64,000 nt of DNA from Bacteroidota bacterium (lineage in GTDB: Bacteria > Bacteroidota > Bacteroidia > Chitinophagales > Saprospiraceae), in the NCBI GenBank assembly GCA_029567325.1, contig JAKQLF010000115.1, forward strand, positions 1 through 64,000, given 5' to 3'. Shown piece by piece: positions 2,393 through 36,373 of this stretch (positions are counted from its first letter, which is position 1; each line of letters begins with the position of its first letter). The translations under genes and the position numbers were made by a program. The notes beneath the pieces are model-generated. The model was not told where the DNA came from. It did no database searches and saw only the letters and a list, made by a program, of their open reading frames with translations.

Positions 2393-2513
2393 TCTATTTA
2401 AATTTCTTTTCAAAACTATGAGTTATTTTTAATTATACCAAAATGGATAAGAATACTTTGTTTTTTATTTGTTTGGTAAATATCGATTTTATTATTTTAT
2501 CAAATTATCAGGC

Positions 2514-6284
<3,771 letters not shown>

Positions 6285-6499
6285 TTACGTTTTTTGTTTT
6301 TGGAAAACTATATTTTTCTCAACGATAGCCTATATGCCATTGCCCTAAGCCCAATTTTACCAATAAGCCTGACCGTTAGTTTTTTCGAAGATTTCATTTG
6401 AGCTAAGCTCCAATTTCTCTCTTCTATTTCGATCAAATTTTCTAAACAAGAAATTCTGGTCAATCCATTTTCCGACTAGTATACACTTCAAATAATTAA

Positions 6500-9112: not shown

Positions 9113-9131
9113 TTCTTTTATTTATAATGTA

Positions 9132-11091: not shown

Positions 11092-11191
11092 ATTTTCTGT
11101 TTTATTTTTAAAAATCAATGACAGGCATCATTTTCTACATGAATGCCATTTTTCTGCACACCAATAGCAACTCTCAACAGTAAGTTCTTGA

Positions 11192-13840: not shown

Positions 13841-13851
13841 TTTATGGTCAT

Positions 13852-16344: not shown

Positions 16345-16431
16345 GTGAACTTAGCTTATTTGAATTATTTGAATCATACCAATTAGGCTTATTTATGACT
16401 ATTTGGTATCGTCTAACATTTGAATTTTTAT

Positions 16432-17451
16432 CTATTCTTTCATTTTAATTATGGCTTTTATAACATCGGTATTTGCTTGTAGTAAATCTGGAAATTGATC
16501 TTTTACATCATCAAAATTCAACGTATTGGTAATGTATTTTTCAGGATCTATTAGTTGATTTTCTATACAACTTATGACAAAGTCAAAATCTGCCTTGGTA
16601 GCATTTCTACTACTCATCAATGTACTTTCTCTTTTGTGAAATTCTGGATGACTAAAAGTAATTTCACCACTCTGTAGGCCAATCAAAACATACCTGCCCC
16701 CATGCGCCAAATATTGGAAAGCTCCATTGATCGCCTTTTGATTGCCAGTTGCATCGATGACAACTGTTGGCATATCTCCATTGGTCATTATTTTTAATGT
16801 TTGATTGACGTCTTCTCTCAGTGGATTGATGGTATGGTTGAACCCAAGTATATCTACACAAAAATCTAGGCGCTTACTATTGACGTCCATCAATATCACA
16901 TTTCCTCCAGCAATTCTGGCAAATTCTGCTGCGGCAATTCCAATAGGACCAGTACCGATGACTAAAACAAAATCATTAGCATTAACAGCTGCTCGTCGTA
17001 CGCCATGTGCTCCAATGGCTAATGGCTCAACCAAAGACAAAGCTTCCAAACTCAAACCTTTACCTTTGATTAATGAGGTTTCAGGTACACAAAGATATTC
17101 CACCATTCCACCGTCCTGGTGCACACCACTTACCCGCATTTCTACGCAACAATTTGTTTTTCCAGACCTGCAAGCAACACACTTACCACAATGAAAATAA
17201 GGAATAAATGTCACCATATCTCCAACAGAAAAATCATCTGTTCCTTGATATTCAACCAAAGTACCCGACAATTCGTGTCCCAAAATTCTTGGATATTGAA
17301 AATAAGGTTGGGTTCCTTCAAAGGCATGCAAATCAGTGCCGCAAATTCCAATCCTTTTTATTTGAATAATTGCTTGGCCTTCTTGTATTGTTGGTTTATC
17401 TAGTGTTATATAATTGAAACTTCCCGGTTTTTCGCAAACTATACCATTCAC
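16432..17451 (-). CDS. zinc-dependent alcohol dehydrogenase, L-galactonate 5-dehydrogenase (LgoD/YjjN)-like
   Basis: A cytoplasmic medium-chain dehydrogenase of 339 residues. Catalytic zinc ligands are Cys37 and the His-Glu of GHE (59-60); structural zinc ligands are Cys88, Cys91, Cys94 and Cys102; the Rossmann motif GTGPIG is at 166-171. Stretches such as GVHQDGG, PEFHKRES and SRNAT closely resemble E. coli LgoD, which oxidises L-galactonate at C5. L-fuconate is 6-deoxy-L-galactonate, so oxidation of the L-fucose-derived acid is a reasonable guess. The start is GTG at 17451: an in-frame TAG lies four codons upstream and no ATG is available. It follows the aldo/keto reductase by 60 bases in the PUL operon. 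Exact substrate is inferred. Confidence 0.85.
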   Translation of the reverse strand: MNGIVCEKPGSFNYITLDKPTIQEGQAIIQIKRIGICGTDLHAFEGTQPYFQYPRILGHELSGTLVEYQGTDDFSVGDMVTFIPYFHCGKCVACRSGKTNCCVEMRVSGVHQDGGMVEYLCVPETSLIKGKGLSLEALSLVEPLAIGAHGVRRAAVNANDFVLVIGTGPIGIAAAEFARIAGGNVILMDVNSKRLDFCVDILGFNHTINPLREDVNQTLKIMTNGDMPTVVIDATGNQKAINGAFQYLAHGGRYVLIGLQSGEITFSHPEFHKRESTLMSSRNATKADFDFVISCIENQLIDPEKYITNTLNFDDVKDQFPDLLQANTDVIKAIIKMKE

Positions 17452-17511
17452 TTTATGATTCTATTTAATTTATTTTTTAATATAATGCTTCATGACTTTT
17501 TTCTCAAATTT

Positions 17512-18549
17512 TCAATCCATGGATGCAACATGAATATTTTTTTCAAAATCAATTTGAATCAAACCTTTTTCATAAAGTTCCTTCCAAAATGATGGAGAGA
17601 TTTTTTTCTCCGTCATAGCAATATTTTGTTTTACTCTTTTGGGATCTGTTGTATTGAGTGCAATGCTTCCTACTCCTGGAATTTGTAATGCAAACTGCAC
17701 ACAGGCCTCAGCTGGCGTGACTTCGTATTGTTTGCAAATCAGGTAAAATTTTTCCCTCCAATCATAGAGGTGTCTGGTTGCAGGATCATGTGGGTCGAGC
17801 AATTTGTAATCAAAATAATCACTACCAACTAAAAATCCTGAATGAAAAACTGCTGAATTAATCACCCAAACACCGCGTTGCGAAAATTCATAGATTAAAT
17901 TTAATAATTCCTGCGGATGACTTTTGATGGTCATGCTATTGGCAATCATTACCCAATCTAAAATTACATCGTGAGATAATTCCTGGATAACTCTCCAGTC
18001 TTTTGCGCCAATACCAATTGCACTTACAATGCCCTCCTTTTTTAAATCATATAAGGCTCTATATGCTTCCAAGATATCATTGTATAATGACAAATAATGA
18101 TCGCGACTCTCAGCCATTGCAAGATATTCGTCTGGGTCATGAACAGAAACCATTTGTGGAATATATCCGCCTAATAACTTATTACCTTGGTCAAAACATT
18201 CAATCACTCCTTTATAACTGATCGTTTGCTTTGCATCATTTTTGAGATTTTTCCAAACTCCTGGCTCAAAAGTTGGTTCTGTGCCTTTCAATTCTGTTCT
18301 CAGCCAACCTAGTTTATTACTTATCTGTACTTCACTTTTCTGGATATTTAATTGATTCAAACATTTTCCTAAAACCTCTAAAGCTAAACCTGCTCCATAC
18401 TTTCCAGCAGAATCAAACATCACCAAACCGTTTGATTCTTCAAAACAATTTTTCACCAATTCAAACTTCTGTTCTTCAGGTATTTCTGTATACAAATTAC
18501 CCAAACTACTGGTCCCAAAAATTATTTTTGGAAACAAGCTACCTTTCAT
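17512..18549 (-). CDS. aldo/keto reductase, L-fucose/D-threo-aldose 1-dehydrogenase-like
   Basis: A 345-residue AKR-fold oxidoreductase without signal peptide. The catalytic tetrad is recognisable: Asp46 and Tyr51 (FDSAGKYGAG), Lys79 (SNKLG) and His137 (VSVHDPD). Sequence character (DSAGKYGAGLAEVLGK-type start, VHDPDEYLA) is that of the aldose 1-dehydrogenase branch that oxidises L-fucose, L-galactose or D-arabinose to the lactone. Placed between SusD and the LgoD-like dehydrogenase, it would begin oxidative use of the fucose freed by GH95. No lactonase, dehydratase or aldolase follows in this window. General AKR function is secure; the substrate is inferred from context. Confidence 0.83.
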   Translation of the reverse strand: MKGSLFPKIIFGTSSLGNLYTEIPEEQKFELVKNCFEESNGLVMFDSAGKYGAGLALEVLGKCLNQLNIQKSEVQISNKLGWLRTELKGTEPTFEPGVWKNLKNDAKQTISYKGVIECFDQGNKLLGGYIPQMVSVHDPDEYLAMAESRDHYLSLYNDILEAYRALYDLKKEGIVSAIGIGAKDWRVIQELSHDVILDWVMIANSMTIKSHPQELLNLIYEFSQRGVWVINSAVFHSGFLVGSDYFDYKLLDPHDPATRHLYDWREKFYLICKQYEVTPAEACVQFALQIPGVGSIALNTTDPKRVKQNIAMTEKKISPSFWKELYEKGLIQIDFEKNIHVASMD

Positions 18550-18652
18550 ACTTCAACTTTTTACTTTAACTCTAAAAACATCGGATACAGATGCACCCTA
18601 AAGATGTGAATAAAATCTCATCCTTAATAATTCCCAAAGATGAAAAGAAAAT

Positions 18653-18696
18653 ATTGAAGCAGGTATCATTTTTTTCATAAGATACCTGCCCTCAAT
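18653..18696 (-). terminator. stem-loop between susD and the downstream PUL genes
   Basis: A 9-bp perfect inverted repeat (gcaggtatc at 18659-18667 with gatacctgc at 18681-18689), extended after a small bulge by attga/tcaat at 18653-18657 and 18692-18696. On the minus strand the stem is followed by a T-rich stretch. It sits 27 bases after the susD stop and about 100 bases before the AKR start. It could be a partial terminator or a 3' protective structure that lowers expression of downstream enzymes relative to susCD. Confidence 0.6.
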
Positions 18697-18722
18697 ACTT
18701 GTTAAAATAGCTACTTTTGTTA

Positions 18723-20411
18723 TTAATAACCTTGAGTTTGTTCCAACTCAGGGTTTCTTAATATTTCATTTGTTTCTATGGGAAGTAAATTAAACTTAGG
18801 ATCAAATTGTCCTCTGTCCAATAGTTGATTTAAAACGTAGTTTTTCTTTCCTGCAGCGTCTTTGATGATGTCCATGCCATAGATGATTCCAGACTCAGCA
18901 ACGTCAGATATTTTCCATCTTCTCACGTCCCAATATCTGTGTTCTTCAAAAGCTAGTTCAATTCTTCTTTCGTTGTACAATCTGCGTCTGAGTTCAGCGC
19001 CTGTTACACTGGCTGGAATGGCTGGCATACCCACTCTGGCTCTTACTTTTGAGAGGTATTCTCTGCATGTCGCCTCGTCGCCCAGCTCAAATTTCGCCTC
19101 TGCGTAATTTAAGTAAATCTCTCCCAATCTGAATATGATCCAAGGATTGGTATAGGGTTGTTGCCAACTCAAAGGAATGTTTGATTCTGGCATGAATTTC
19201 TTCAAAACATAATTTGATCTTGGATTATCACCACTTTGTTTGTAAGAATCAAATCCCCATTTTGAGCCATCTGGTGAAACCCACATTTCAAAAATATCAC
19301 CTCTATATTCAGATCCATCATGAATAATGGTTGCTTCAAATCTAGGATCTCTGTTTGCATATGGATTTTGTGGGTCATAACCTGAAGCAGGATTTACTGT
19401 CTTCACACCTCCTGGATAAATAAATGGAGGTTCACCATTTGTCATATCGTAGTCATCAACCAGGTTTTGCGTAGGTCCGTTACTTGCCCACCAACCACCG
19501 TATGCTCCGTACCTTCTATTGAGGTTGTGCATTGGGGCTTGGTGTGAATTGGTAGCTGAAAAACTACGGACAAAAATCATTTCATTATTTGGAGCACCAC
19601 TTGGTTGATTAAATACTTGCGAATAATTTGGCTCTAAAATATAATCGCTTTTCATCACTTGCTCTGCATATGTTGCTGCTTTTTGCCATCTGTTTTTGTC
19701 ATTGGCAGTGTTGAAAAGCGGAGAAGCTGCATAAAGCGTCAACCGAGAAAGCAATGCATTGCACGCATCTTTTGTCGCCCTACCAAAATTACTATCTGTT
19801 GATGCATACTTGGTTGCCAAATCAGGAATGGCAGCTAATAATTCAGTTTCTATAAATGTAGCAACTTCATCAAATGAACTTCTTTTGAATGAAACTTCCT
19901 CTCCCAAATCATAAACTTCGGTCACAATTGGTGCACCTCCAAAACGCTCAATGAGATTGAAATAAATGAAAGCTCGTAGAAATTTTGCCTCAGCAACCAA
20001 TCGAGCTTTGTTCTGGATAGCTATTGCATCTCCTTCCATCTTCTCTAGAAAAACGTTGATTTTACGAATGGCTTGGAAAGCAGTACCCCAATAATAAATA
20101 TTTCCTCCACCAGTCCAGTGGTTGGTAGCTGCACTGGTAATGTTATCAGGATTCATTGTGCGACGTGCGACGTTACCCAAATCCCAAGCAATTGAACAGT
20201 AAGCCTCATCAGTGGCCTTTGACTGCATGTGGATTTTAAATCCGTGTTCTATACTATTTTGATACAATGCATTGTGATAGGCTTTGATCAAATTTTCATC
20301 CGACCAAACCGCATCCTCTGCTATTCTATCTTTTGGTGGAATATCCAGAATGTCATCATTACAAGCGGATATAAAAGCCAATAATGTAAATAAGAATAAT
20401 ATCTTTTTCAT
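18723..20411 (-). CDS. SusD/RagB-like glycan-binding outer-membrane lipoprotein
   Basis: A 562-residue SusD-family protein. The signal peptide ends in a lipobox (LAFISAC, lipidated Cys17). TPR-like helices and the family C-terminal region are visible, including YLNYAEAKFELGD, RRRLYNERRIELAFEEHRYWDVRRWK and a closing LLPIETNEILRNPELEQTQGY region. SusD proteins sit on the cell surface over the SusC pore and capture oligosaccharides. It starts 12 bases after susC ends, so the two are translated together. Residue-level ligand contacts cannot be read from sequence; the ligand is inferred from the downstream enzymes. It is transcribed with susC from the LacI-controlled promoter. Confidence 0.96.
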   Translation of the reverse strand: MKKILFLFTLLAFISACNDDILDIPPKDRIAEDAVWSDENLIKAYHNALYQNSIEHGFKIHMQSKATDEAYCSIAWDLGNVARRTMNPDNITSAATNHWTGGGNIYYWGTAFQAIRKINVFLEKMEGDAIAIQNKARLVAEAKFLRAFIYFNLIERFGGAPIVTEVYDLGEEVSFKRSSFDEVATFIETELLAAIPDLATKYASTDSNFGRATKDACNALLSRLTLYAASPLFNTANDKNRWQKAATYAEQVMKSDYILEPNYSQVFNQPSGAPNNEMIFVRSFSATNSHQAPMHNLNRRYGAYGGWWASNGPTQNLVDDYDMTNGEPPFIYPGGVKTVNPASGYDPQNPYANRDPRFEATIIHDGSEYRGDIFEMWVSPDGSKWGFDSYKQSGDNPRSNYVLKKFMPESNIPLSWQQPYTNPWIIFRLGEIYLNYAEAKFELGDEATCREYLSKVRARVGMPAIPASVTGAELRRRLYNERRIELAFEEHRYWDVRRWKISDVAESGIIYGMDIIKDAAGKKNYVLNQLLDRGQFDPKFNLLPIETNEILRNPELEQTQGY

Positions 20412-20423
20412 TGTTCTTTAATT

Positions 20424-23400
20424 TTAGAATTTAACATTTGCTCCAATATTGAGCACTCTTTGTTGTGGATAATATAAAAATCCACCATTCATTTCTGGGT
20501 CTGCCCACTTGATTTCTTTGGCCCAAGTCAACAAGTTTGACCCACTTAAATAAATTCGAGTTTGGCTCAATCCAGCCTTTCCAGAAAGACTCGCTGGTAA
20601 TGAATAGCCAATTTCCATGTTTTTCAACCTTGCAAATGTGGCGTCAAACAACCACATCGTATTGTTGCTTGGTGCATTGTCCGCAGCTCGTGGTAAACTA
20701 CCATTTGGATTATCTACTGACCATCTATCTTCTGCTCTGTATACAGAAGCATTATCAAAGTTGGAGTTTCCAAGTGAAGCAAATCCTCCATCATAGTTAT
20801 AAGCATTGGTTTGCCCCTGGAAGAACATGTTGAGATCAAAGCTTTTATAGCTCAAATCAAAGTTTAATCCAAAAACTATTTCTGGAATTGCAGTATAATT
20901 GAATCTAAACTGATCTGCTGCATTGATCATGCCATCACCATTTAAATCCACAATTTTGGTATCACCCAATTGTGCATTGGCCAATCGAGGAGAGCTTTCC
21001 AATTCTTCTTGAGTATTGAAAATTCCATCGGCTTGGTAAAATAAGCCAGCACCAACAGGGCGACCTGTCTGATTTTTGACCTCTTCGTCTTGTGGAACTT
21101 CATCCATGAAGATGATTTTACTTCTGGCAAATGAAGTACTTCCACCGATTCTATATCTAAATTCACCTACTGTGCGATTGTGTGACAATTCCAATTCAAA
21201 TCCATGGCTCTTTACTTCACCAATGTTTTCATCTGGTATTGATGAGAATCCTAAAACATTACTGATAGATACATTTTTCTTGGCAAGAATATTGGATCTG
21301 TTTTGATTCCAAAGCGTAAAATTCACGCCCAATAATCCTTTTAACATCGTAGCCTCTACACCCAAATCCAATTTTTCACTTACTTCCCATGTAATGTTGG
21401 GGTTTGGCAATGTATTTGGGAAAATACCCGGAACATCACCACTGCCAAATACATAATTTTGACCAAAAGAAAAAGATTGCAGATACTGATATGGAGCAAC
21501 TCTATCATTTCCAATTTGTCCAAAAGATCCTCTCAATTTCAAGAAGTCGACAAAATCAACGTCTTGCATAAATGATTCCTCAGAAACCAACCATCCTGCT
21601 GACATGGCTGGGAAAAATCCGTACCTCTTTTCGTTGGGAAATATTTGGGAACCATCATATCTAAATAAAACTTCAGCCAAATATCTACCCTTGAAACTGT
21701 AGTTAAATCGACCAAAATAATTGTTATAGGCACTTGCAGATGTGGATCCACCATTGTTTTTGTCCTCTGGTGCCGTGCTACCTACGTTGATCTGATCAAT
21801 AGCAGAACTGACAAAGTTTCTTCTATAAGCTTGTGCCCATATGTTGTCATTTTGTTGACGTTCTACTCCAAGCATTGCGCCAATATTGTGGTTGTCTCCT
21901 ATGAGTTTATTGTAGTTGATTCGAGCATTTGCAAGTCTAGTGGTCCACCTGTTGTATGTATCCCACAATTCTGTTGTTGACGAACCAGTACCTTGTTTTC
22001 TGTCGTAATTTTGCGTATTGACATTGTATTCATTATAGAAATATGGCTTTACAAATCTTTTTTCAAATCTGTTATTCAAGTCATAATTGTAACTTCCAGT
22101 TATTTTCAAACCTTCTACACCAGGAATTTGGTAAGTCGCAGTAAGCGTAGAATATATAGGACTGTCACTATTGGAGGTAAGGCCTCTTTGATCTACCAAT
22201 AATGGATTCTCACCCAATCTTCCTGGAGCTATCAATCCATTTGGATATCTGGCCACCAACGTTGGATTCGCAAGGATGATGTTTGTAAAATCCGTTGTAT
22301 TGTTATTGACAGCCGAATTGGTAGTTTTATTCAATATTGCTGAAATATTGGCTCCTATTGTCAGGTGTTTACTGACATTTATATCCGTTGTCAATCGGAA
22401 GTTGTACTGGTTATAATCAACTGGTGTATTTCTAAAGTTTCCATCTTGATTCATGTACCCAAATGATAAGAAATACTTTGCAGCTTGGGTACCTCCAGCA
22501 ACTGACATGTTGATTCTTTGTTGCACAGAATGAGGTCTTAGCATTTCATCTACCCAATCAGTATTTGGATAGAGTACAGGATCTGATCCGTCTGCATATT
22601 TTCTTATTGCATCTGCTGAATAAAAAGGAGTAAAAGTAGCTGGCCGACCTGCTCTATACCATTCAGCTTCATTGAATACTTGTGCGTAGGTTGCGGCATC
22701 CATAACATCGACAATCTTGGTAGGAGCAGAAAAAGATTGATTCATTGAAACATTAAATTCTGGTTTTCCCAATGCACCCTTTTTGGTAGTTATCAAGATT
22801 ACACCATTAGCCGCCCTTGCTCCATAAATGGCAGCACTTGCGTCTTTCAAAACGGAGATACTTTCTATATCACTTGGGTTGAGTCGCCCCATAAAACTTC
22901 TTGGAACACCATCAATAATGATCAACGGTGATGCAGGATTGATTCCATCTCCAGTATTACTGTCAAATGTGCCACTACCTCTGATCAAAAGATTGGGATC
23001 ATCAGCACCAGGTTGACCAGAGCGCTGATTGACAATCAAACCTGGTAGACGTCCTGCCAGTGAACTGGTAACATTGGCAGTAGGGCTCTTGACCAATTCT
23101 ACACCTTTGACACTCGATACAGAACCAGTAAGAGTTTCCTTCCTTTGTTCTCCGTAACCTATTACAACTACTTCGTCAAGTGCAGCAACATCAGCTGCCA
23201 AGACAATGTCAATATTTGTCTGTGACCCAACATTTATTTCTTGAGTCATAAAACCAATAAAGCTGAATACCAAAGTGGAATTTTGTGGCACTCCATCCAC
23301 TTCATAGAATCCATCAACGTCTGTGATGGTACCTATGGTTGATCCTTTTACAATAACATTGACTCCGATTACTGGAGGACTACCCTCTTCATCAGATACA

Positions 23401-23528
23401 ATTTTTCCAGAAATTTTTAAATTCTGGGCATTTAATCCCACTGAGTATAGGATTAAGCAGATAAACCACAAACTGTGCCTTACAATCCACGGCCTACCAT
23501 AATGTGATGTGGTAAACTTTTTTAGCAT
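20424..23528 (-). CDS. SusC/RagA-like TonB-dependent transporter
   Basis: A 1034-residue TonB-linked outer-membrane protein of the SusC type. Order: signal peptide (to LNAQ, residue 35), carboxypeptidase-regulatory-like beta domain (about 37-115), the conserved EVVVIGYGEQRKETLTGSVS segment (about 120-135), plug domain with the family motif ending GVILITTKKG, then a 22-strand beta-barrel ending in NIGANVKF with a C-terminal aromatic residue. It imports oligosaccharides into the periplasm using TonB/ExbBD energy. No N-terminal STN domain is present, so it is not an anti-sigma-linked receptor; this agrees with control by the adjacent LacI regulator. It heads the minus-strand operon. Confidence 0.97.
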   Translation of the reverse strand: MLKKFTTSHYGRPWIVRHSLWFICLILYSVGLNAQNLKISGKIVSDEEGSPPVIGVNVIVKGSTIGTITDVDGFYEVDGVPQNSTLVFSFIGFMTQEINVGSQTNIDIVLAADVAALDEVVVIGYGEQRKETLTGSVSSVKGVELVKSPTANVTSSLAGRLPGLIVNQRSGQPGADDPNLLIRGSGTFDSNTGDGINPASPLIIIDGVPRSFMGRLNPSDIESISVLKDASAAIYGARAANGVILITTKKGALGKPEFNVSMNQSFSAPTKIVDVMDAATYAQVFNEAEWYRAGRPATFTPFYSADAIRKYADGSDPVLYPNTDWVDEMLRPHSVQQRINMSVAGGTQAAKYFLSFGYMNQDGNFRNTPVDYNQYNFRLTTDINVSKHLTIGANISAILNKTTNSAVNNNTTDFTNIILANPTLVARYPNGLIAPGRLGENPLLVDQRGLTSNSDSPIYSTLTATYQIPGVEGLKITGSYNYDLNNRFEKRFVKPYFYNEYNVNTQNYDRKQGTGSSTTELWDTYNRWTTRLANARINYNKLIGDNHNIGAMLGVERQQNDNIWAQAYRRNFVSSAIDQINVGSTAPEDKNNGGSTSASAYNNYFGRFNYSFKGRYLAEVLFRYDGSQIFPNEKRYGFFPAMSAGWLVSEESFMQDVDFVDFLKLRGSFGQIGNDRVAPYQYLQSFSFGQNYVFGSGDVPGIFPNTLPNPNITWEVSEKLDLGVEATMLKGLLGVNFTLWNQNRSNILAKKNVSISNVLGFSSIPDENIGEVKSHGFELELSHNRTVGEFRYRIGGSTSFARSKIIFMDEVPQDEEVKNQTGRPVGAGLFYQADGIFNTQEELESSPRLANAQLGDTKIVDLNGDGMINAADQFRFNYTAIPEIVFGLNFDLSYKSFDLNMFFQGQTNAYNYDGGFASLGNSNFDNASVYRAEDRWSVDNPNGSLPRAADNAPSNNTMWLFDATFARLKNMEIGYSLPASLSGKAGLSQTRIYLSGSNLLTWAKEIKWADPEMNGGFLYYPQQRVLNIGANVKF

Positions 23529-23993: not shown

Positions 23994-25025
23994 ATGCAAA
24001 AAAAACGTGTGACCATATATGACATTGCTAGAGCGCTCAATGTCTCAGCTTCATATATCTCACGTGCACTGAATGATCATTCTACAATCAGTGAAAAAGC
24101 GAAAGAAAAAATTAAGAAAAAAGCGGCTGAATTAAATTATAAGCATAATTCTCTGGCTGCGAACTTGAGGCAAGGAGGTTCCAAACTTCTTGGTGTGATT
24201 GTACCCTTGATCAATCAAAGATTCTTCTCTGATACCATCTCAGGAATCGAAGAAATTTGTTCTGATAAAAACTACAGTTTATTGATTTGTCAATCACATG
24301 AAAACTTTTCAAAAGAGGTTCACGCAGTAGACACATTGATCAAACAAAATGTGGAGGGCATTCTCATTTCTGTATCCTCAGAAACAAACTCTTCAGATCA
24401 CCTTCAAAACGTTTTAAGTCACGATATCGAATTAATCCAATTTGACAGATGTTTGGACGAGCTAGAAAGCATTAAGGTGGAAAATAACAACTTAGAAATA
24501 AGCTATAAAGTCACCAAAAACATCATAGAAAGTGGATATGATAAAATTGCATTTTTGGGGGGCCCAAACCACCTCTCTACTTTCAAAAATAGAAAGGACG
24601 GTTTTTTAAAAGCAATCAAAGAATTCAATTTGCCCATCCCTTTCAATTTTATTCAGGAAGATCTTTTGTTACCTGAAAATAGCTATAAAGTGGCGCGCGA
24701 ACTTTTGCTTTTGAAAGATCCACCAAATGCCTTTCTCACGGTTTCTGACCATCAATCTCTTGCCATTCTAAGGCTCGCAAATGAACTCCAAATTGATGTT
24801 CCAAATGATTTGGCAATTTTTGGTTTTGCCAATGAGGATTTTACAACAATCACCAATCCTTTTTTATCTTCTGTCGATCAAAAAAGTAAGGAACTTGGAA
24901 GACAAGCTGCCTTGGCTTTCTTTGCTAAAACAAATATTGAACGGGCCAAAGGTGAAAAGATTGAACCTATTATTGTTGAAAGCGAAATCATTGTAAGACA
25001 GAGTTCTACAAAATTATTGGTTTAA
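23994..25025 (+). CDS. LacI-family transcriptional regulator of the PUL
   Basis: A 343-residue regulator. The N-terminal helix-turn-helix (about residues 4-48: VTIYDIARALNVSASYISRALN, then the hinge helix near NYKHNSLAANLRQG) is followed by a periplasmic-binding-protein-like sugar sensor domain with characteristic LLGVIVPLINQRFF and DLAIFGFANED segments. It is divergent from susC, with two mirrored CG-centred operators between them. Most SusCD loci use hybrid two-component or ECF/anti-sigma control; LacI control is less common but known. The likely effector is a mono- or disaccharide from the imported glycan, and de-repression on binding is the usual mode. DUF6807 follows after 90 bases and may be co-transcribed. 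Confidence 0.93.
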   Translation: MQKKRVTIYDIARALNVSASYISRALNDHSTISEKAKEKIKKKAAELNYKHNSLAANLRQGGSKLLGVIVPLINQRFFSDTISGIEEICSDKNYSLLICQSHENFSKEVHAVDTLIKQNVEGILISVSSETNSSDHLQNVLSHDIELIQFDRCLDELESIKVENNNLEISYKVTKNIIESGYDKIAFLGGPNHLSTFKNRKDGFLKAIKEFNLPIPFNFIQEDLLLPENSYKVARELLLLKDPPNAFLTVSDHQSLAILRLANELQIDVPNDLAIFGFANEDFTTITNPFLSSVDQKSKELGRQAALAFFAKTNIERAKGEKIEPIIVESEIIVRQSSTKLLV

Positions 25026-25115: not shown

Positions 25116-26213
25116 ATGGGCAACACTAAACATACCACCTATCCAACTTCTGGTCTCATCTTTACTTTTGTATTTATATGGCTTTTCTTGTCTTCAACCA
25201 TACAAATTACCGCACAAAACAGCGGATCAAAAGTTAATAAACAAAAAAGAATTACACTAATCAGCAATGAAGTAGACAGAAAAGTAGACGTGCTGATTGA
25301 TGGCAGATTATTTACCTCCTACATATATCCTTCAACTATTAAAAAACCTGTTCTATATCCTTTGATTTCGCCAAGTGGCACCAAAATTACTAGAAAATTT
25401 CCTTTAGAACCTTCAGTAGGCGAACGCGTCGATCATCCTCACCACGTTGGATTATGGTTTAATTATGGTGACGTCAATGGTTATGATTTTTGGAATAATT
25501 CCGATGCCATTCCAGTAGATAAAAGAGATGGCTATGGCACAATATATCATCGAGCCATAAACAACATGGAGAACGGTGATGATGAGGCAAAGTTGTCAGT
25601 AACAATGGAATGGGTTTCTGCCAAAGGCGATGTATTATTGGAAGAACAAACTACTTTTGTATTTAGAGGCAAAGGCAACGAATATTCGATAGATCGCATC
25701 ACCAAATTGACTGCAAAAAATGGTGATGTAAGCTTGATAGACAACAAAGAAGGTGTATTGGGCATCAGGCTCATCCGCGAATTAGAACACCCAAGCGATA
25801 AGCCAGATATTTTCACTGATGCAAATGGCATTGCCACCAAGGTTGCTGTATTAAATAATGATGGGGTATATGGAAAGTACACCAATGCCGAAGGAATACA
25901 AGGCGACGATTGCTGGGGCAAACGTTCCAATTGGGTAAATTTATCATCTCATGTTGGCAATGAAATTATCAATTTAGCCATCCTGGATCATCCAAAAAAT
26001 GTAGGTGCACCAACTTACTGGCACACTAGAGGATATGGTTTATTTGCCGTCAATCCACTTGGTCAATCCGCTTTGAGCAATGGCAAAGATGTGCTCAACT
26101 TTGGGTTGAAAAAAGGTGAGAGCACCACCTTCAGACATCGCATAATTATTGCCAATGAGGATTTGGGGAAAAAGCAAATGGATGCCAGGTTCGATGCTTT
26201 TTCTAAGCAATAA
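25116..26213 (+). CDS. secreted DUF6807 (PmoA) family protein
   Basis: A 365-residue secreted protein. The N-terminal hydrophobic segment (FTFVFIWLFLSSTIQITAQ) is a signal peptide. The body matches the DUF6807 family, once labelled methane oxygenase PmoA: conserved HPHHVGLWFNYGDVNGYDFWN, EQTTFVF, GIRL and GDDCWGKRSNWV segments are present. The PmoA label is misleading; these proteins are common in Bacteroidota and Planctomycetota carbohydrate loci and have no established reaction. The conserved His pair and Asp/Asn residues suggest a sugar-active or metal-binding pocket. It lies just after lacI, on the same strand, so a link with the PUL is plausible. Confidence 0.85.
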   Translation: MGNTKHTTYPTSGLIFTFVFIWLFLSSTIQITAQNSGSKVNKQKRITLISNEVDRKVDVLIDGRLFTSYIYPSTIKKPVLYPLISPSGTKITRKFPLEPSVGERVDHPHHVGLWFNYGDVNGYDFWNNSDAIPVDKRDGYGTIYHRAINNMENGDDEAKLSVTMEWVSAKGDVLLEEQTTFVFRGKGNEYSIDRITKLTAKNGDVSLIDNKEGVLGIRLIRELEHPSDKPDIFTDANGIATKVAVLNNDGVYGKYTNAEGIQGDDCWGKRSNWVNLSSHVGNEIINLAILDHPKNVGAPTYWHTRGYGLFAVNPLGQSALSNGKDVLNFGLKKGESTTFRHRIIIANEDLGKKQMDARFDAFSKQ

Positions 26214-29372: not shown

Positions 29373-32069
29373 ATGAGAATTATTTCGGCATTGTTGGTCA
29401 TTCTTTGTTTACAAGCCCAAGCTCAAATCAGTCTTCCAAAGTTGGTCAGTAACGGGGCTGTTTTGCAAAGAGACGAACCTATTAATTTATGGGGCTACGC
29501 ATCTCCAAAGGAAAAAATAACCATTCAAATAAACAAAGAAAAATACAAAACCAAGGCTGATGAAAAGGGACATTGGGAGGTAAAAATACCCGCTCATCCT
29601 GCGGGAGGTCCTCACACCATCATACTCAAAGGCAAGAATGAAATCAAGATAGAAGACGTACTTTTTGGTGATGTTTGGTTGGGCTCAGGACAATCCAATA
29701 TGGTGGTAAACATGGAGCGGGTAAAAGAAAAATATCCTGATGATATTGCCTCAGCAAACTATCCACAAATTAGAAATTTCTTTATCAAAACCATGACCGA
29801 CCTGACAGGGCCTCAAAAAGATTTTCCAGATGGGCAGTGGGTGGTAGTTTCTCCCCAGAATGTTCTTACTATGGGCGCTGTTACTTACTTTTTTGCAAGG
29901 GAACTACATACCAGATACAACGTTCCAATTGGTATCATCAATTCTAGCGTTGGCGGTACACCCATAGAAGCTTGGATCAGTGAAAAAGGCTTTAAGGATT
30001 TTGATAAAATTTTGAAAACCATCGAGACAAACAAAGACACTGCCGCTATCAGCCAAAGACTTGCTGCATTCAGAAACAGAACTGGCGGTGGAGGACAGCA
30101 AAGACAACCAAAGGACTTAGGAACGTCAGAAAATCCAAAATGGTACGAAACAAGTTACAAACCCAAAGCATGGGCAGACATCAATATCCCCGGCTTTTGG
30201 GAAGATCAAGGTCTAAATAACTTGGATGGCGTTGTTTGGTTCAGAAGAGAAATTGAAGTCCCCAAAGAAATGTGTGATATGGATGTAAAATTATTTATGG
30301 GTCGCATTGTAGATTCAGATCACGTATACGTAAATGGCACTCAAGTAGGAAATATCACTTATCAATATCCACCTCGCAGGTATATCATTCCAAAAGGCGT
30401 TATGAAGCCTGGTAAAAACATTATAGTCATAAGGGTGCAAAACAATGGAGGTAAAGGCGGGTTTGTACCTGATAAACCTTACTACATGACTGCCAATGGA
30501 ATGGAAATAGATTTAAAAGGAACTTGGCAATATAAAGTAGGAGAAGTTTTCGTTCCCACACCATTTGGTGGAGGAGGCGGCGGCGGAGGATTTACTGCCC
30601 AAAACCAGCCAACAGCTTTATTCAATGCCATGTCTGCACCTATAGTTGCTCAAACCTCCATCAAGGGTATGTTATGGTATCAAGGAGAATCAAATACGGG
30701 TAATCCTATCATTTACAAAGATTACATGGAAGCCTTGGTCAACGATTACCGTCGCATGTTTAACAAACCAAATCTGCCAGTTATTGGAGTCCAGTTGGCC
30801 AATTTTATGGAGCAGGATTTTGTACCGGTAGAAAGCAATTGGGCTGCCCTGCAACATTCCCAATTTTTAGCAACCAAGATGCCCGGAACTGCATTGGCTG
30901 TAATCTCTGATGCAGGCGAATGGAACGACATTCACCCACTCAACAAAAAAGCTGTGGGAGATCGTTTGGCTTTGGCAGCAAGAAAATTGGCTTATGGTGA
31001 AACCAATTTGACCATTTCTGGACCAAGGTTTTCGTCCTACACCATGGAAGGTAATAAAATGATCCTAAGTTTTGATGAAGTTGGCAAAGGCCTCAGAACC
31101 ATTGATGGCGAACCTTTAAAATATTTTTCCATCGCTGGTGATGATCGAAAATTTGTTTGGGCCGATGCAAAAATTGTTGGAGATAAAATTGAAGTAAGTT
31201 CACCTGAGGTTTCAAAGCCACAATTTGTAAGATACGCTTGGGCAAATAATCCTGTAGGAGCAAATTTGACCAATGATACAGGCATTCCTGCTTCGGTTTT
31301 TGAGGCCGGAGTTGGCAACGAGAAAAAGTTGTGGCACGGCAAAAAAGCAACCGTTGTGCTTACCTATGATGATGCGCTCGACGTACATTTGGATAATGTT
31401 GTTCCGGCACTCAATCGATTGAGTTTTCTCGGAACCTTTTACATGACAGCATCAGCGCCTGCTAGTGAAAACAGAATAAATGACTGGAGGCGAGCAGCTC
31501 AAAGAGGGCACGAATTGGGAAATCATACTTTGTATCATCCTTGTGATGGAAGTAAACCAGGTCGATCTTGGCTCACTCCGTTAAACGATTTGAGTAAATA
31601 TACAACCGAACAAATTGTGCGAGAAGTGAAAATGACCAATGCTTATTTGGAAAGTATTGATGGAAAAAAACAGCGCACTTTTGCCTATACCTGTGGCGAT
31701 ACAGAAACCGCTGAAGGCTCTTTCATCAATGCTATCAAAGACGAGTTTGTAGCACTTAGAGGGGTAAGGGGACAAAACAGTACGATCGACAATGTCAATT
31801 TGGAAAACGTAGATTGTTATTCCATTGATAATAGTAATGCCGATAAACTGCAATCCTGGGCAGAAAAGGCAATTGAAGATAATGCGCTGATGGTTGTATT
31901 ATTCCATGGAGTTGGTGGCGGACATAGCATCAATACCGATCTAGACAAACACAATGCTTTTTTACAGTTTTTGAAAGATCACGAAGATGAAATTTGGGTT
32001 ACCACAATGGTAGACGCTGCGCAAAACATCATTGATTATAAATCTGCTGTCAAAAAAGAAGGAAAGTAA
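29373..32069 (+). CDS. SGNH acetylesterase fused to NodB/CE4 polysaccharide deacetylase
   Basis: An 898-residue secreted protein with two esterase/deacetylase modules. The ATG at 29373 gives a signal peptide (MRIISALLVILCLQAQAQ); the longer TTG frame at 29349 is not needed. The first module is sialate-O-acetylesterase-like: GSGQSNM (Ser108) and DIHP (Asp519, His521). It is interrupted at about 265-395 by a jelly-roll, GH2-like sugar-binding domain, then a run of eight glycines. The second module (about 655-890) is a NodB domain with TYDDA (Asp666-Asp667) and HELGNHTLYH (His718, His722), giving the Asp-His-His metal triad. It would remove O-acetyl and possibly N-acetyl groups from a polysaccharide. 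CE15 follows after 51 bases. Confidence 0.9.
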   Translation: MRIISALLVILCLQAQAQISLPKLVSNGAVLQRDEPINLWGYASPKEKITIQINKEKYKTKADEKGHWEVKIPAHPAGGPHTIILKGKNEIKIEDVLFGDVWLGSGQSNMVVNMERVKEKYPDDIASANYPQIRNFFIKTMTDLTGPQKDFPDGQWVVVSPQNVLTMGAVTYFFARELHTRYNVPIGIINSSVGGTPIEAWISEKGFKDFDKILKTIETNKDTAAISQRLAAFRNRTGGGGQQRQPKDLGTSENPKWYETSYKPKAWADINIPGFWEDQGLNNLDGVVWFRREIEVPKEMCDMDVKLFMGRIVDSDHVYVNGTQVGNITYQYPPRRYIIPKGVMKPGKNIIVIRVQNNGGKGGFVPDKPYYMTANGMEIDLKGTWQYKVGEVFVPTPFGGGGGGGGFTAQNQPTALFNAMSAPIVAQTSIKGMLWYQGESNTGNPIIYKDYMEALVNDYRRMFNKPNLPVIGVQLANFMEQDFVPVESNWAALQHSQFLATKMPGTALAVISDAGEWNDIHPLNKKAVGDRLALAARKLAYGETNLTISGPRFSSYTMEGNKMILSFDEVGKGLRTIDGEPLKYFSIAGDDRKFVWADAKIVGDKIEVSSPEVSKPQFVRYAWANNPVGANLTNDTGIPASVFEAGVGNEKKLWHGKKATVVLTYDDALDVHLDNVVPALNRLSFLGTFYMTASAPASENRINDWRRAAQRGHELGNHTLYHPCDGSKPGRSWLTPLNDLSKYTTEQIVREVKMTNAYLESIDGKKQRTFAYTCGDTETAEGSFINAIKDEFVALRGVRGQNSTIDNVNLENVDCYSIDNSNADKLQSWAEKAIEDNALMVVLFHGVGGGHSINTDLDKHNAFLQFLKDHEDEIWVTTMVDAAQNIIDYKSAVKKEGK

Positions 32070-32120
32070 TCCATCGTTAAAATTCAATTTCTATTGATGT
32101 CAAAAGTTAAAATTAAAGTC

Positions 32121-33638
32121 ATGAAAAACATATTTTTTTTACTCTTATTGATACTAGGTTTTTATCAGGTTAATGCTCAAAAATACCCAGCTCCTGTCAC
32201 TTTCAACAATGAACAAGATCACCAAAACATGATGGATCAGCTGGGCATTAAAGTATTGAGGCCAGGCCCAAGTGGTAATGAATCGGCACCCAATGCAGCC
32301 AATTATAAGGAAGAACTCGCAAATCCTTGCCCACAACTTCCTGATTTACTCATGACTAAAAAGGGGAAGAAAATCAGTACGGCTGCAGATTGGTGGTCAT
32401 TGAAAAGACCAGAAATTTTGGAGGGCGTAGAGCGTGAGTTATATGGAAAATTACCTGCTAAAATTCCAGCAGTTACCTGGACTGTAAAAATTGAAGACAA
32501 GGAGTTTGTGGGTCGTGTACCTGTGGTGGCTAAACAACTCATTGGCCATGTAGACAATAGTGAATATCCACTCATCAATGTAGACATCAATATGATGCTC
32601 GTGGTTCCTACGAATGTGAAAGGACCTGTTCCGGTATTGATGATGTTTGGCAGGCCTTCATTTCCGGCTCCAGCTCAACCAAGTCCAGAACACATGGAAA
32701 TCATCAATCAATCATTTAAAGACATGATGATCAAAAATGACCCGAAAATGAAGGAAATTTTTGATCTATATCCAGCATATAATCCCATAACGAGGTTACC
32801 TGGACGGAATCCTTTTGCGCCAGCACCAGAAGGAGATTTACCACCAACAGAACAATTATTGGCTGCTGGTTGGGGATACGTAACCATTGATCCGTCCAGT
32901 ATTCAAGCAGACAATCATGCCGGTATTACAAGAGGCATCATTGGTTTGGTCAACAAAGGCCAACCTAGGTCACCAGATGATTGGGGCGCATTGCGCGCTT
33001 GGGCATGGGGCGCTGCAAGAGGATTGGACTATTTAGAAACTGATCCTTTGGTCGATGCTAAAAAAGTTGGAATTGAAGGTGTATCCAGGTATGGAAAAGC
33101 AGCTTTGGTCACCTTGGCATTTGAAGAAAGATTCTCAGTTGGTTTAATAGGCTCTTCCGGAAAAGGAGGCACCACTCTGCATCGTAGAGTTTGGGGTGAA
33201 GCTGTAGAAAGCCTCACTGGCGGAGAAAATTACTGGATGTGTGGTAATTACATGCGTTTTGGTGCTGAAGAATCTTCTTTTGGCAAAAAAACAGGGTGTG
33301 ATCTTACTGTAGATTCACATGATATGTTAGCACTTTGTGCTCCAAGATTGGCTTTTGTAAGTTATGGAATTCCAGAAAAAGGAGACGCTAAGTGGCTGGA
33401 TCAAAAAGGTAGTTACATGGCAACCATTGCCGCTGGTTCCATTTATAAATTATTGGGTGCCAAAGATTTGGGAGTTTCAAACGATTATATGAAAGAAGAA
33501 ATGCCACCCATGTTGACAGACATGCTCGATGGACAATTAGCCTGGAGGCAACATGACGGAGGTCACACCGATGCTCCCAACTTCAAACACTTCATCCCTT
33601 GGGCAAGTAAGAATTTGGGTTATAAAGTGACTAGGTAG
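32121..33638 (+). CDS. CE15 glucuronoyl esterase-like protein
   Basis: A secreted alpha/beta-hydrolase of 505 residues (signal peptide MKNIFFLLLLILGFYQVNAQ; ATG at 32121 preferred over the TTG/ATG at 32094/32097). The nucleophile motif is GVSRYGKAA (Ser322), the CE15 signature where family members have G-C/V-S-R-x-G-K. A candidate catalytic His is His482 in HDGGH. The segments WGALRAWAWG and GGENYWMCGNYM also fit CE15. CE15 enzymes cleave esters between 4-O-methyl-glucuronic acid of xylan and lignin. The acid residue could not be placed: the usual Ser-Gly-Glu-Gly stretch reads SSGKGG here. Substrate is therefore uncertain. Probably co-transcribed with the SGNH-CE4 gene. Confidence 0.85.
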   Translation: MKNIFFLLLLILGFYQVNAQKYPAPVTFNNEQDHQNMMDQLGIKVLRPGPSGNESAPNAANYKEELANPCPQLPDLLMTKKGKKISTAADWWSLKRPEILEGVERELYGKLPAKIPAVTWTVKIEDKEFVGRVPVVAKQLIGHVDNSEYPLINVDINMMLVVPTNVKGPVPVLMMFGRPSFPAPAQPSPEHMEIINQSFKDMMIKNDPKMKEIFDLYPAYNPITRLPGRNPFAPAPEGDLPPTEQLLAAGWGYVTIDPSSIQADNHAGITRGIIGLVNKGQPRSPDDWGALRAWAWGAARGLDYLETDPLVDAKKVGIEGVSRYGKAALVTLAFEERFSVGLIGSSGKGGTTLHRRVWGEAVESLTGGENYWMCGNYMRFGAEESSFGKKTGCDLTVDSHDMLALCAPRLAFVSYGIPEKGDAKWLDQKGSYMATIAAGSIYKLLGAKDLGVSNDYMKEEMPPMLTDMLDGQLAWRQHDGGHTDAPNFKHFIPWASKNLGYKVTR

Positions 33639-33642
33639 GTGA

Positions 33643-33838
33643 CAGTTATCAGTTGTCAGTTGTCAGTTGTCAGCTATCAGTGGTTAACTTTATAAAGTAC
33701 AGGAGAAAAGCTTTTCGCCCCCTTAATTACAAACTTTAAAACTTTCCACTTTATAAACTTTCTACTATATGAACTCAGTTTTAAATGTTTATTTGTTTAC
33801 TTCTTTATAAACGAATAGATGCAAGGTCTCTCTGCAAA
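33643..33838. repeat. heptamer array plus composite dispersed repeat
   Basis: Positions 33643-33682 hold six CAGYTNT-type heptamers (cagttat, cagttgt and variants, period 7). These are followed by a gaaaagcttttcgcccc hairpin and actttataaactttc repeats up to about 33780. The same parts recur at 37.2-38.0 and 39.4-39.8 kb. The stretch sits between the CE15 and pyruvyl-transferase-like genes and could end or separate transcripts. Confidence 0.7.
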
Positions 33839-33854
33839 TTAAAATTGGCAACAA

Positions 33855-35120
33855 ATGTACACACGTCGACATTTTTTAAAAGATAGCTCTCTCACGGCAT
33901 TTGGGCTTGCTTTATCAAATGTTCTGTACGCTACAACTGCTGGTGAAAAGCATATTTTGCTTCGAAATGGTTGGCAGGTAGAAAACATTGGAGATATTGC
34001 ACATACCCCAGGAATGTTGCAACTTATAAAGCAATACATTCCAAAAGCCAAGGTTACATTTTGGCCACATTACCATGTTTTACCTGCTGAAGAAGTAGAC
34101 TTGTTAAAGCGCGATTTTCCTGATTTGAAAATTGTCGAAGGAAAGTTGGATGCTGCAGGGAATGTTCCAGAAGAAGTTGCCAAAGTGATGGATACAGCTG
34201 ACTTTTTTCTACATGGTTCAGGACCTGCTACCATTGGATGGGCTGAGGCACTTGCATTTAAAAAGCGTACAGGAAAACCGTATGGAGTATATGGTGTAAC
34301 TTATGGATTGTATGGCACTCCAGAAAATGAAATGTTGAATGAAGCTGCTTTCGTGTATTTCCGCGATACCATTTCATTAGAATTAGCCAAAAAATCAGGT
34401 ATTCATGCCCCAATTATGGGATTTGCCCCCGATGCTGCATTTGCGTTTAAAGGGAAAAATGATAGAAAAGCAAAGGCTTTTTTAGAGGTAAATAATTTGA
34501 CTAAAGGACAGTTCTTATGCTGTATTCCTAAACACAGGGCAACACCTGTTTGGCTACATCCCTTAAAAGGAAGACCTTTTGACAAAACAAGAAATGATCG
34601 CAATGAAGCCATGATGGAACACGATCATGGACCTTTGCGCCAGGCGATAATTGATGTGGTGCGCCAGACAAATCTTAAGGTCTTAATAGTTGCAGAAGAT
34701 TTGACACAAACCGAATTGGGTAAAAAGGAAGTTTGGAATAAACTACCTGAAGATGTACAGCAAAAGACCGTTTGGAGATCTGAATTTTGGCTACCAGATG
34801 AAGCCTTAAGCATTTACCTTCAGTCGAGCGGTTTGTTTAGTTTGGAAATGCACAGCCCTATTATGTGCATTGGCAACGGTATTCCCGCTTTGGTGGCGCG
34901 CTGGCAGGAGCAAAGCAGCAAAGGAATTATGTGGCGAGATATTGGATTGGACGATTGGTTGTTCGACTTTGATAATGATGATGAATTGCAAAAGTTTGCT
35001 CCAAAAGTTTTGGAGATGGCAAAAAATCCGACAACATTTAGAAAAATGGCTCAAACTGCCCAAAAGAGGGTAACAGAATTTCAGAAAAATACCATGTCCA
35101 TTTTGAAAAAATCTGTTTAA
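33855..35120 (+). CDS. Tat-exported polysaccharide pyruvyl transferase-like protein
   Basis: A 421-residue protein of the polysaccharide pyruvyl transferase family (PF04230-like): the NIGDIAHTPGMLQLI segment near residue 37, the ADFFLHGSGPATIGW stretch, KPYGVYGVTYG, and the YFRDTISLELAKKSG/MGFAPDAAFAF pair near 150-185 are typical. It begins with a twin-arginine signal, TRRHFLKDS, followed by a hydrophobic segment ending near ATTAGEK, so it is probably exported folded. Family members normally work in the cytoplasm adding ketal-pyruvate from PEP to cell-wall or exopolysaccharide sugars, so an exported member is unexpected because PEP is absent outside the cytoplasm. It may have a different activity. 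Follows the CE15 gene by 216 bases. Confidence 0.82.
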   Translation: MYTRRHFLKDSSLTAFGLALSNVLYATTAGEKHILLRNGWQVENIGDIAHTPGMLQLIKQYIPKAKVTFWPHYHVLPAEEVDLLKRDFPDLKIVEGKLDAAGNVPEEVAKVMDTADFFLHGSGPATIGWAEALAFKKRTGKPYGVYGVTYGLYGTPENEMLNEAAFVYFRDTISLELAKKSGIHAPIMGFAPDAAFAFKGKNDRKAKAFLEVNNLTKGQFLCCIPKHRATPVWLHPLKGRPFDKTRNDRNEAMMEHDHGPLRQAIIDVVRQTNLKVLIVAEDLTQTELGKKEVWNKLPEDVQQKTVWRSEFWLPDEALSIYLQSSGLFSLEMHSPIMCIGNGIPALVARWQEQSSKGIMWRDIGLDDWLFDFDNDDELQKFAPKVLEMAKNPTTFRKMAQTAQKRVTEFQKNTMSILKKSV

Positions 35121-35446: not shown

Positions 35447-36373
35447 ATGGCCGATATTTCAATAAAAGAATTTTATAAAGATGTATTCAGCAAAGATTGT
35501 TGTTTGCTGGATAATATACTTAGTGAAGAAAATGGACAAGACATTGGCAACTTCAATGTTTTTGATATCGCAACAATGTTCCAGTCCTGCAAGTCACAAC
35601 CCATGCCTTACAATCGTCGAACTTACTACAAAATCAGCTTGATCAAAGGTCGCAATAAAGTAGAATTTGCAGACAAAGAAATCGAAATCTCTGACTGCGC
35701 AGTGCTCTTTGCATCACCAAAAATTCCTTATCGGTACACTCCTCTAGACCAACTACAAACAGGACATTTTTGTGTATTTACCAAAGAATTCATGTCATTG
35801 CCAAAAACAGCATTACTACTCGACAATTTACCAATATTCAACCCAAACGGCGACTTTGTTTACGAAATCACCACTGAGCAATTTCTTGAGATAGAGCATA
35901 TATTTCTCAAAATGCACAAAGAAATAAAGGCAGATTATACATTCAAATATGATCTGCTGCGCAACTATGTGATAGAACTCATCCATACGGGTCAAAAGCT
36001 CAAACCCATGTTTGCCCAAGCACAAAACCACAACGCTGCTGAGAGAATTTCTACGCTTTTTGTCGAATTGTTGGAAAGACAATTCCCCATTGAGTCACCC
36101 AATCAAGTATTACAATTAAAAACGGCAAAGGAATTTGCTGCCACACTCCATGTGCATGTCAACCACCTCAATAAAGTATTGAAAGATATGACAGGAAAGA
36201 CCACTACCGAAATCATTAGTAGCCGCATCACCCAAGAAGCAAAAATTTTATTACAACAGACCAATTGGAACATTTCGGAAATCGCTTTCAGCCTTGGATT
36301 TGATGAAATAGCTCATTTCTCCAATTTCTTTAAAAAGCAAACCTTTCAATCTCCAATGGCATTTAGAGCATAA
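35447..36373 (+). CDS. AraC-family transcriptional regulator
   Basis: A 308-residue regulator. The N-terminal cupin-like sensing domain (about 20-190) is followed by a two-HTH AraC DNA-binding domain (about 215-308) with FAATLHVHVNHLNKVLKDMTG and ISEIAFSLGFDEIAHFSNFFKKQTFQSPMAFR. The last segment is the family signature. It ends 93 bases before the SDR gene. The exact 20-base repeat in front of both genes, with a second related site before the SDR gene, makes the SDR its likely target along with itself. Architecture resembles regulators that control an adjacent short-chain reductase; the inducer is unknown. Confidence 0.93.
   Translation: MADISIKEFYKDVFSKDCCLLDNILSEENGQDIGNFNVFDIATMFQSCKSQPMPYNRRTYYKISLIKGRNKVEFADKEIEISDCAVLFASPKIPYRYTPLDQLQTGHFCVFTKEFMSLPKTALLLDNLPIFNPNGDFVYEITTEQFLEIEHIFLKMHKEIKADYTFKYDLLRNYVIELIHTGQKLKPMFAQAQNHNAAERISTLFVELLERQFPIESPNQVLQLKTAKEFAATLHVHVNHLNKVLKDMTGKTTTEIISSRITQEAKILLQQTNWNISEIAFSLGFDEIAHFSNFFKKQTFQSPMAFRA

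Follow-up and report, generated by a model that had tools for sequence, protein, structure and literature searches.

What does a relative of the polysaccharide pyruvyl transferases do when it carries an export signal and lies behind two esterases? The question arises in a 64,000-nucleotide stretch from a Bacteroidota bacterium of the Saprospiraceae (assembly GCA_029567325.1, contig JAKQLF010000115.1, positions 1 to 64,000), here called the window. An initial annotation had joined three of its genes into one exported cluster that could remove or exchange acetyl, ester and pyruvyl groups on a complex polymer. We find that the interval is two unrelated things, a pair of esterases and a member of a coherent, large, multi-phylum and apparently undescribed protein family. 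The family very probably has a role in glycan degradation, and the opening of pyruvate ketals is our tentative choice for its reaction.

The three consecutive plus-strand genes are present as annotated, with 24 bp between genes 1 and 2 and a 216-bp gap between genes 2 and 3.

29373..32069, plus strand, 906 amino acids: gene 1, CE20-type SGNH acetylesterase with an inserted beta-sandwich and a C-terminal CE4-type deacetylase
32094..33638, plus strand, 514 amino acids: gene 2, CE15 / glucuronoyl-esterase-like protein
33855..35120, plus strand, 421 amino acids: gene 3, PF04230-related protein with a twin-arginine translocation (Tat)-type signal, a GT-B fold model and Glu331 at the position of a phosphoenolpyruvate (PEP)-contacting arginine
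33855..33944, plus strand: Tat-type signal region of gene 3 (MYTRRHFLKDSSLTAFGLALS...), by motif only, end approximate

The esterase pair and its neighbour

Gene 1 has its first ATG at 29373 and a TTG upstream at 29349. It matches SASA (PF03629, 77.2 bits), a GH2-N-like insert (PF02837, 29.0 bits where 28 is the cut-off) and polysaccharide deacetylase (PF01522, 59.2 bits where 23.1 is required). We take its SGQSN at 113 to be SGNH-type, and TYDDA at 672 with HELGNHTLYH at 721 to be the CE4-type Asp/His metal motif. It aligns end to end with the CE20 structures 9h4u (3.4e-182, residues 15–652), presumably the enzyme Fl8CE20_II discussed below, and 9ega (2.2e-215, residues 24–652), named a sialate O-acetylesterase. 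The SGNH-CE4 fusion of the initial annotation is of CE20 rather than generic SGNH type.

Gene 2 matches PF22244 (98.5 bits) and has the CE15 protein 6hsw as its best solved relative (6.5e-86). It carries Ser and His motifs that we read as the CE15 active-site motifs. Like the CE15 glucuronoyl esterases (6hsw, OtCE15A) it aligns with 6hsw over two stretches, but it is longer, with an insert between the two aligned parts. Both gene 1 and gene 2 have Sec-type signals by eye.

Such a pair recurs. Among 296 genomes of the phylum, gene 1 has matches in 143 and gene 2 in 40. Relatives of the two lie within 4 kb in 9 of the 16 genomes compared, on different contigs in 4 and far apart in 3; this count drew on 28 genomes for gene 1 and on 19 of the 40 for gene 2. 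One genome (G010) has the full CE20-CE4 fusion 84 bp from a CE15 gene.

The available text of PMC12313940 places relatives of Fl8CE20_II in a xylan cluster of CE20, some with attached CE4 and CE15 domains, and reports O-deacetylase activity of Fl8CE20_II on xylan. Gene 1 is alike in residues 15–652 or so and differs by its C-terminal CE4 fusion. Genes 1 and 2 are therefore a recurring esterase pair of a kind already described. Together they would take acetyl groups and glucuronoyl esters off a xylan-type polymer.

Gene 3 does not travel with this pair. Among CE15 loci with 1.5-kb flanks, it is shown by 1 of the 30 that could show it behind CE15, the window's own, and the window's place is present twice in this comparison. 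Conversely, the 83 loci of gene 3 relatives, many with up to 10 kb per side and others on short contigs, hold no CE15, and in 4 of them there is only a weak match to gene 1 (21–29 bits). Searched for with its protein alone, gene 3 turned up in none of 59 other relatives and in 1 of 394 other genomes of the phylum.

The initial annotation was to be given up if gene order proved unconserved and expression unlinked. The first half is what we find, as the three-gene order occurs nowhere else in these comparisons. We reject the three genes as one conserved decorating system on the 1 of 30 CE15 loci and the 0 of 83 family loci, and the presence of gene 3 beside the esterases is probably accidental.

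The gene 3 family

Gene 3 matches PF04230 (polysaccharide pyruvyl transferase) with 44.8 bits, above the cut-off of 25.3, and belongs to that family by sequence. A genome scan with a four-sequence alignment gave at least 594 pattern matches, at least 520 encoding a relative, and the 80 loci kept are 45–59% identical. They come from Bacteroidota, Verrucomicrobiota, Planctomycetota, Lentisphaerota, Kiritimatiellota, Acidobacteriota, Armatimonadota and Bacillota, with two further members in the actinomycete Nonomuraea and on a Spirosoma plasmid. Calling of open reading frames (ORFs) gave no family gene in 6 of 83 loci (L036, L041, L043, L050, L073 and L081; L numbers denote loci).

The tree has the window's protein and 97 relatives on one side and 23 canonical PF04230 proteins apart, with a support of 100 in the Shimodaira-Hasegawa-like approximate likelihood ratio test (SH-aLRT), by a quick method whose program flags long canonical branches. 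The canonical proteins are all from Bacteroidota and among the stronger PF04230 matches. They came from 24 of 35 loci, 11 having frames too short, and became 23 when L106 was dropped for a wrong frame. In the openly licensed literature we found no paper treating this family in polysaccharide-utilisation loci.

Tandem copies, three or four in a row, occur in SusCD loci of Cytophagales (L044, L055, L057 and L083, with L046, L061 and L064 near-identical to these), among them Spirosoma, Larkinella and Runella. One tandem copy type is only 30–32% identical to the window's protein. The copies possibly serve different ketal positions or sugars.

The donor site distinguishes the family from the canonical proteins. 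As given in the accessible part of PMC10435577, changes of R148 in CsaB abolish activity, those of H308 abolish or lower it (H308K and H308S keep some), K328R lowers turnover and R306 contacts docked PEP. The accessible part of PMC4872226 has R217 and R337 of Pvg1p as predicted PEP contacts conserved among homologues. The Arg and His of this site are retained, R170 and H333 being found in all 98 family and all 23 canonical proteins.

The second PEP-site arginine (R306 in CsaB, R337 in Pvg1p) is missing from the family. Its position 331 is E in 97 of 98 proteins and D in one; the 23 canonical proteins have R (17), S (4), T (1) or K (1). Moreover, invariance of H50, E281, R349 and K356 is confined to the family. 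The comparison was first made on 58 family and 24 canonical rows and then on 98 and 23. The invariance of R170 and H333 suggests an acidic, pyruvate-like ligand.

Export-like signals are the rule. The N-terminus of gene 3, MYTRRHFLKDSSLTAFGLALS, is Tat-type by look, and a Tat- or Sec/lipoprotein-like N-terminus is found at 72 of 74 loci from six Gram-negative phyla, by a home-made motif and hydrophobicity rule rather than a trained predictor and with phylum labels from record titles. By phylum these are 32/32 in Bacteroidota, 20/21 in Verrucomicrobiota, 12/13 in Planctomycetota, 3/3 in Lentisphaerota, 1/1 in Kiritimatiellota and 4/4 in Acidobacteriota. The remaining two loci are L020 and L023; a contig end truncates L023. 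None of the four Bacillota loci is export-like.

Two unexported members sit beside importers. The one of Paenibacillus harenae (L062) comes after two ATP-binding cassette (ABC) permeases and a solute-binding protein, with DUF2264 behind it. That of Nonomuraea (L004) has a LacI-like gene on one side and an ABC importer with heparinase II/III on the other. These importer, DUF2264 and heparinase II/III genes, picked by eye for scanning, share the strand of the family gene. In both loci the protein is placed where imported oligosaccharides arrive, which in SusCD organisms is the periplasm. A cytoplasmic location with access to PEP is indicated neither for gene 3, with its Tat-type N-terminus, nor for most relatives, and PEP is not expected in the periplasm.

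The neighbourhoods also differ from those of the canonical proteins, compared with flanks of about 1.5 kb. Among 73 of 74 ORFs beside canonical genes (one PF04230 gene was dropped), there are 12 matches to GT1, 9 to GT2 and 7 to a flippase model. Among 121 of 153 ORFs beside family genes (12 loci, near-duplicates and L003-L005, were left out), no glycosyltransferase model has two or more members. Models with at least two include SusD (5), beta-helix (5), DUF2264 (3), CitMHS (3), Gfo/Idh/MocA (3), GH88 (2) and GH38 C-terminal (2). An earlier tally had used 92 of 104 remaining ORFs. Neither the neighbours of the family genes nor those of gene 3 in the window show the setting of a polysaccharide biosynthesis cluster.

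Over the 83 family loci, SusC relatives occur in 21 and SusD relatives in 19. Thirty neighbours chosen by eye were scanned singly. They include GH92 (L006, L008), GH38 (L008, L017, L049), GH88 (L010, L014, L049, L060), GH10 (L008, L014), GH28 (L012), PL8 (L055), heparinase II/III (L010) and DUF2264 (L009, L014), the last not mentioned in any of the papers that a literature search listed. Six have no match, four belong to other families (PFL-like, WbsX, beta-propeller and flavin mononucleotide (FMN) oxidoreductase), and a GH88 match in L057 is just below the cut-off.

Some neighbours are of interest in themselves. A protein with no Pfam match lies near the family gene in L006 and L012 and has relatives in five loci (L006:8037-9962, L012:3701-5638, L025:11323-13299, L048:18041-19945 and L049:3339-4268). 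The model of the L006 member, with a predicted local distance difference test score (pLDDT) of 78, folds like PL33 and heparinase III lyases, so a new polysaccharide lyase family is possible by prediction.

In two Verrucomicrobiota (L065:8332-9918 and L067:647-2227), a protein of about 528 amino acids directly upstream of the family member is probably an anion transporter of the CitMHS / sodium-sulfate symporter type and could take up a released carboxylate. In L018, a PFL-like glycyl-radical enzyme (12074-14452, plus strand; nearest solved relative the glycerol dehydratase 1r8w) follows the family member and, by eye, an activase-like ORF (L018:11170-12072). Its ORF opens with a Tat-type signal. 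An exported glycyl-radical enzyme would be strange and the start may be wrong.

Candidate reactions of the family

The AlphaFold2 model of gene 3 (mean pLDDT 92.6, predicted TM-score 0.89) is a GT-B protein. With the ketal-pyruvyltransferases of the CsaB, Pvg1p and WcfO type, the family shares the Pfam match, an NxGD motif, the donor-site Arg and His and the GT-B fold. It differs from them by Glu/Asp for the PEP-contacting arginine, the extra invariant H50/E281/R349/K356, signals that mark it as mostly exported, a neighbourhood without glycosyltransferases and a compartment where PEP is not expected. The simplest account would have a ketal-forming PEP enzyme turn into a ketal-opening one. Our best reading, still a tentative one, is a glycan-breakdown enzyme that has lost PEP use and is most likely a pyruvate-ketal hydrolase; ketal hydrolysis itself is plausible without being probable.

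The change may have proceeded as follows. The ancestors would have put pyruvate onto sugars using cytoplasmic PEP. The PEP-contacting Arg would have become Glu, with the second donor-site Arg and the His retained, and the protein would have been exported to where foreign glycans are cut. There, in the periplasm, the gene 3 protein would bind a pyruvylated sugar with the retained Arg/His holding the carboxylate of its pyruvate. The acid and base would be Glu331 and His333, possibly joined by His50. Water would then open the ketal, leaving free pyruvate and a sugar open to ordinary glycosidases or lyases. This descent of an exported GT-B family of pyruvate-ketal hydrolases from pyruvyltransferases, with ABC import bringing the substrates of its unexported members into the cell, is a conjecture that we hold to be less likely than not.

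The organism's own genome (5.8 Mb, 97% complete, 402 contigs) has gene 3 as its only PF04230 match, and therefore shows no pyruvyltransferase of this family for its own polymers. The initial annotation had offered the Tat protein as a pyruvyl-removing or -moving enzyme. The export signal, the neighbourhood without glycosyltransferases, the acid in place of the PEP arginine and the lack of another PF04230 match all fit that proposal. The clade, the export-like signals, the neighbourhood, the replaced residue and the predicted fold are observations; loss of PEP use, hydrolysis and a pyruvate ketal as the substrate are inferred.

Several points weigh against a ketal hydrolase. Activity is known for no family member. 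The closest folds are UDP-GlcNAc 2-epimerases, with GT4 enzymes also among them (best match Z 23.9, root-mean-square deviation 3.9 over 340 residues, 12% identity), and not a pyruvyltransferase. Pvg1p is not among the best 50 fold matches listed, nor is CsaB, which excludes nothing, and sequence searches give no solved relative for gene 3. Equating E331 with R306/R337 depends on the (R/E)-x-H register and not on an alignment with the CsaB or Pvg1p sequences. Position 331 is non-Arg in 6 of the 23 canonical proteins too, though an acid in none.

The neighbourhoods have weak sides as well. The degradative families each make up at most 5 of the 121 neighbours, which spread over 107 families, and these are plain counts. 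The canonical control comes solely from Bacteroidota, without matching by phylum. At 13 of 77 loci, some at contig ends, the family gene has no gene on its own strand within 250 bp. The mixture of mannosidases, uronate lyases and xylan-type enzymes implies several substrates, not all known as pyruvylated. The PL8 neighbour in L055 matches chondroitinase AC (9.7e-76) more closely than xanthan lyase (1.1e-28). Furthermore, neither of the two Armatimonadota loci is export-like. Since this phylum is usually described as Gram-negative, they misfit a plain Gram-negative export rule.

A reading specific to xanthan was considered and rejected because of this L055 protein; the GH10 and GH28 neighbours also point elsewhere.

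Among specific reactions, the one ranking next to ketal hydrolysis is an attack, as by GH88/GH105, on the delta-4,5-unsaturated uronyl end that polysaccharide lyases produce. Such an end is the enol ether of an alpha-keto acid and PEP-like, so by analogy its protonation at a PF04230 site, followed by addition of water, could set the sugar free. The neighbours with PL8, heparinase II/III-like, DUF2264, beta-helix and PL33/heparinase-III-like folds would suit this, as would keeping the carboxylate-holding Arg/His while the other PEP arginine is lost. However, GH88 is co-encoded in L010, L014, L049 and L060, so that the step would often be doubled. The organism's own genome shows neither GH88 nor DUF2264 and a single weak match to heparinase II/III, which disfavours a lyase-product function in this organism, and no lyase is seen by eye in the window. 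We consider uronyl hydration unlikely. Somewhat less so is a broader alternative, a GT-B hydrolase, phosphorylase or transglycosylase without pyruvate handling, or a mover of pyruvyl groups between sugars. The epimerase and GT4 structural matches and the diverse substrates implied by the neighbours speak for it, but the invariant Arg170 and His333 are PEP-site residues.

The loss of a donor-site residue could also mean that catalysis is gone and the gene 3 protein only binds glycans, with the tandem copies of Spirosoma, Larkinella and Runella as a binding set. The invariance of H50, R170, E281, H333, R349 and K356 with E/D at 331 across phyla is typical of an enzyme, however, and makes pure binding improbable. 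Least credible is a conventional PEP-dependent pyruvyltransferase decorating the organism's own surface polymer. The PF04230 score above the Pfam cut-off is in its favor, but the export signal takes the protein away from PEP, the donor-site Arg is a Glu and no glycosyltransferase model has two or more of the 121 neighbours.

A ketal hydrolase would fall into a gap. Pyruvate ketals occur on many bacterial polysaccharides and algal galactans (available text of PMC6801904). PvGal-ase of Bacillus sp. HMA207, a GH1 beta-galactosidase, resembles the proposed enzyme in handling pyruvylated glycans during degradation, but it frees pyruvylated galactose by cutting the glycosidic bond and leaves the ketal on (available text of PMC6090015). 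Xanthan lyases (PL8) free pyruvylated mannose (available text of PMC12827396). Their lyase chemistry likewise does not remove the ketal, and a PL8 protein adjoins tandem family members in L055. The fold of PvGal-ase is unrelated to that of gene 3.

The accessible portions of PMC6801904, PMC12827396, PMC10881899, PMC12772297 and PMC6090015 deal with pyruvylated sugars and their release and contain no enzymatic ketal removal. Among the papers listed on the subject, one on xanthan modification mentions depyruvylation (PMC13209923). In the openly licensed literature, no enzyme was found that removes a pyruvate ketal from a polysaccharide.

The gene 3 family, with at least 520 relatives (80 examined) and often beside glycan-degradation genes, could fill this gap. 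If so, its members would be the enzymes so far missing for taking pyruvate off algal, plant-associated or bacterial polysaccharides ahead of their degradation. The misleading annotation label 'polysaccharide pyruvyl transferase' would be corrected for them, and they might become a tool to de-pyruvylate xanthan and similar gums.

The rest of the window

The trio lies between regulators and faces a larger glycan-utilisation locus.

851..23528, minus strand: divergent glycan-utilisation locus with a carboxylesterase, GH2, GH31, GH97 (two ORFs), GH3, GH95, an alcohol dehydrogenase, an aldo/keto reductase, SusD and SusC
18723-20411, minus strand: SusD
20424-23528, minus strand: SusC, named by eye from sequence
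23994..25025, plus strand: LacI-type regulator, possible regulator of the neighbourhood (Pfam scan)
25116..26213, plus strand: DUF6807 protein adjoining the LacI regulator (Pfam scan)
35447..36373, plus strand: AraC-type regulator downstream of the trio (Pfam scan)

The interval had also been described as free of glycosidases. This is true only within 29.4–35.1 kb, because the divergent SusC/SusD and GH locus fills 0.85–23.5 kb and GH2, GH31, GH97, GH3 and GH95 thus occur within 30 kb. The SusCD pair is divergent from the trio and at least 5.8 kb upstream. A scan for promoters and terminators gave no excess over shuffled sequence, and the DUF6807 protein has no relative in the 83 loci of the gene 3 family.

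GH97 is split into two minus-strand ORFs (9132-10304 and 10336-11118) that divide its N-terminal domain from its catalytic and C-terminal domains; the gene is either broken or wrongly assembled. A DUF5122 beta-propeller protein carrying a sorting tail for type IX secretion (26507-28969, minus strand) separates the LacI/DUF6807 genes from the esterases. Further downstream, by eye, a metallo-beta-lactamase-fold protein (37983-39392, minus strand) is seemingly fused to rhodanese-like domains.

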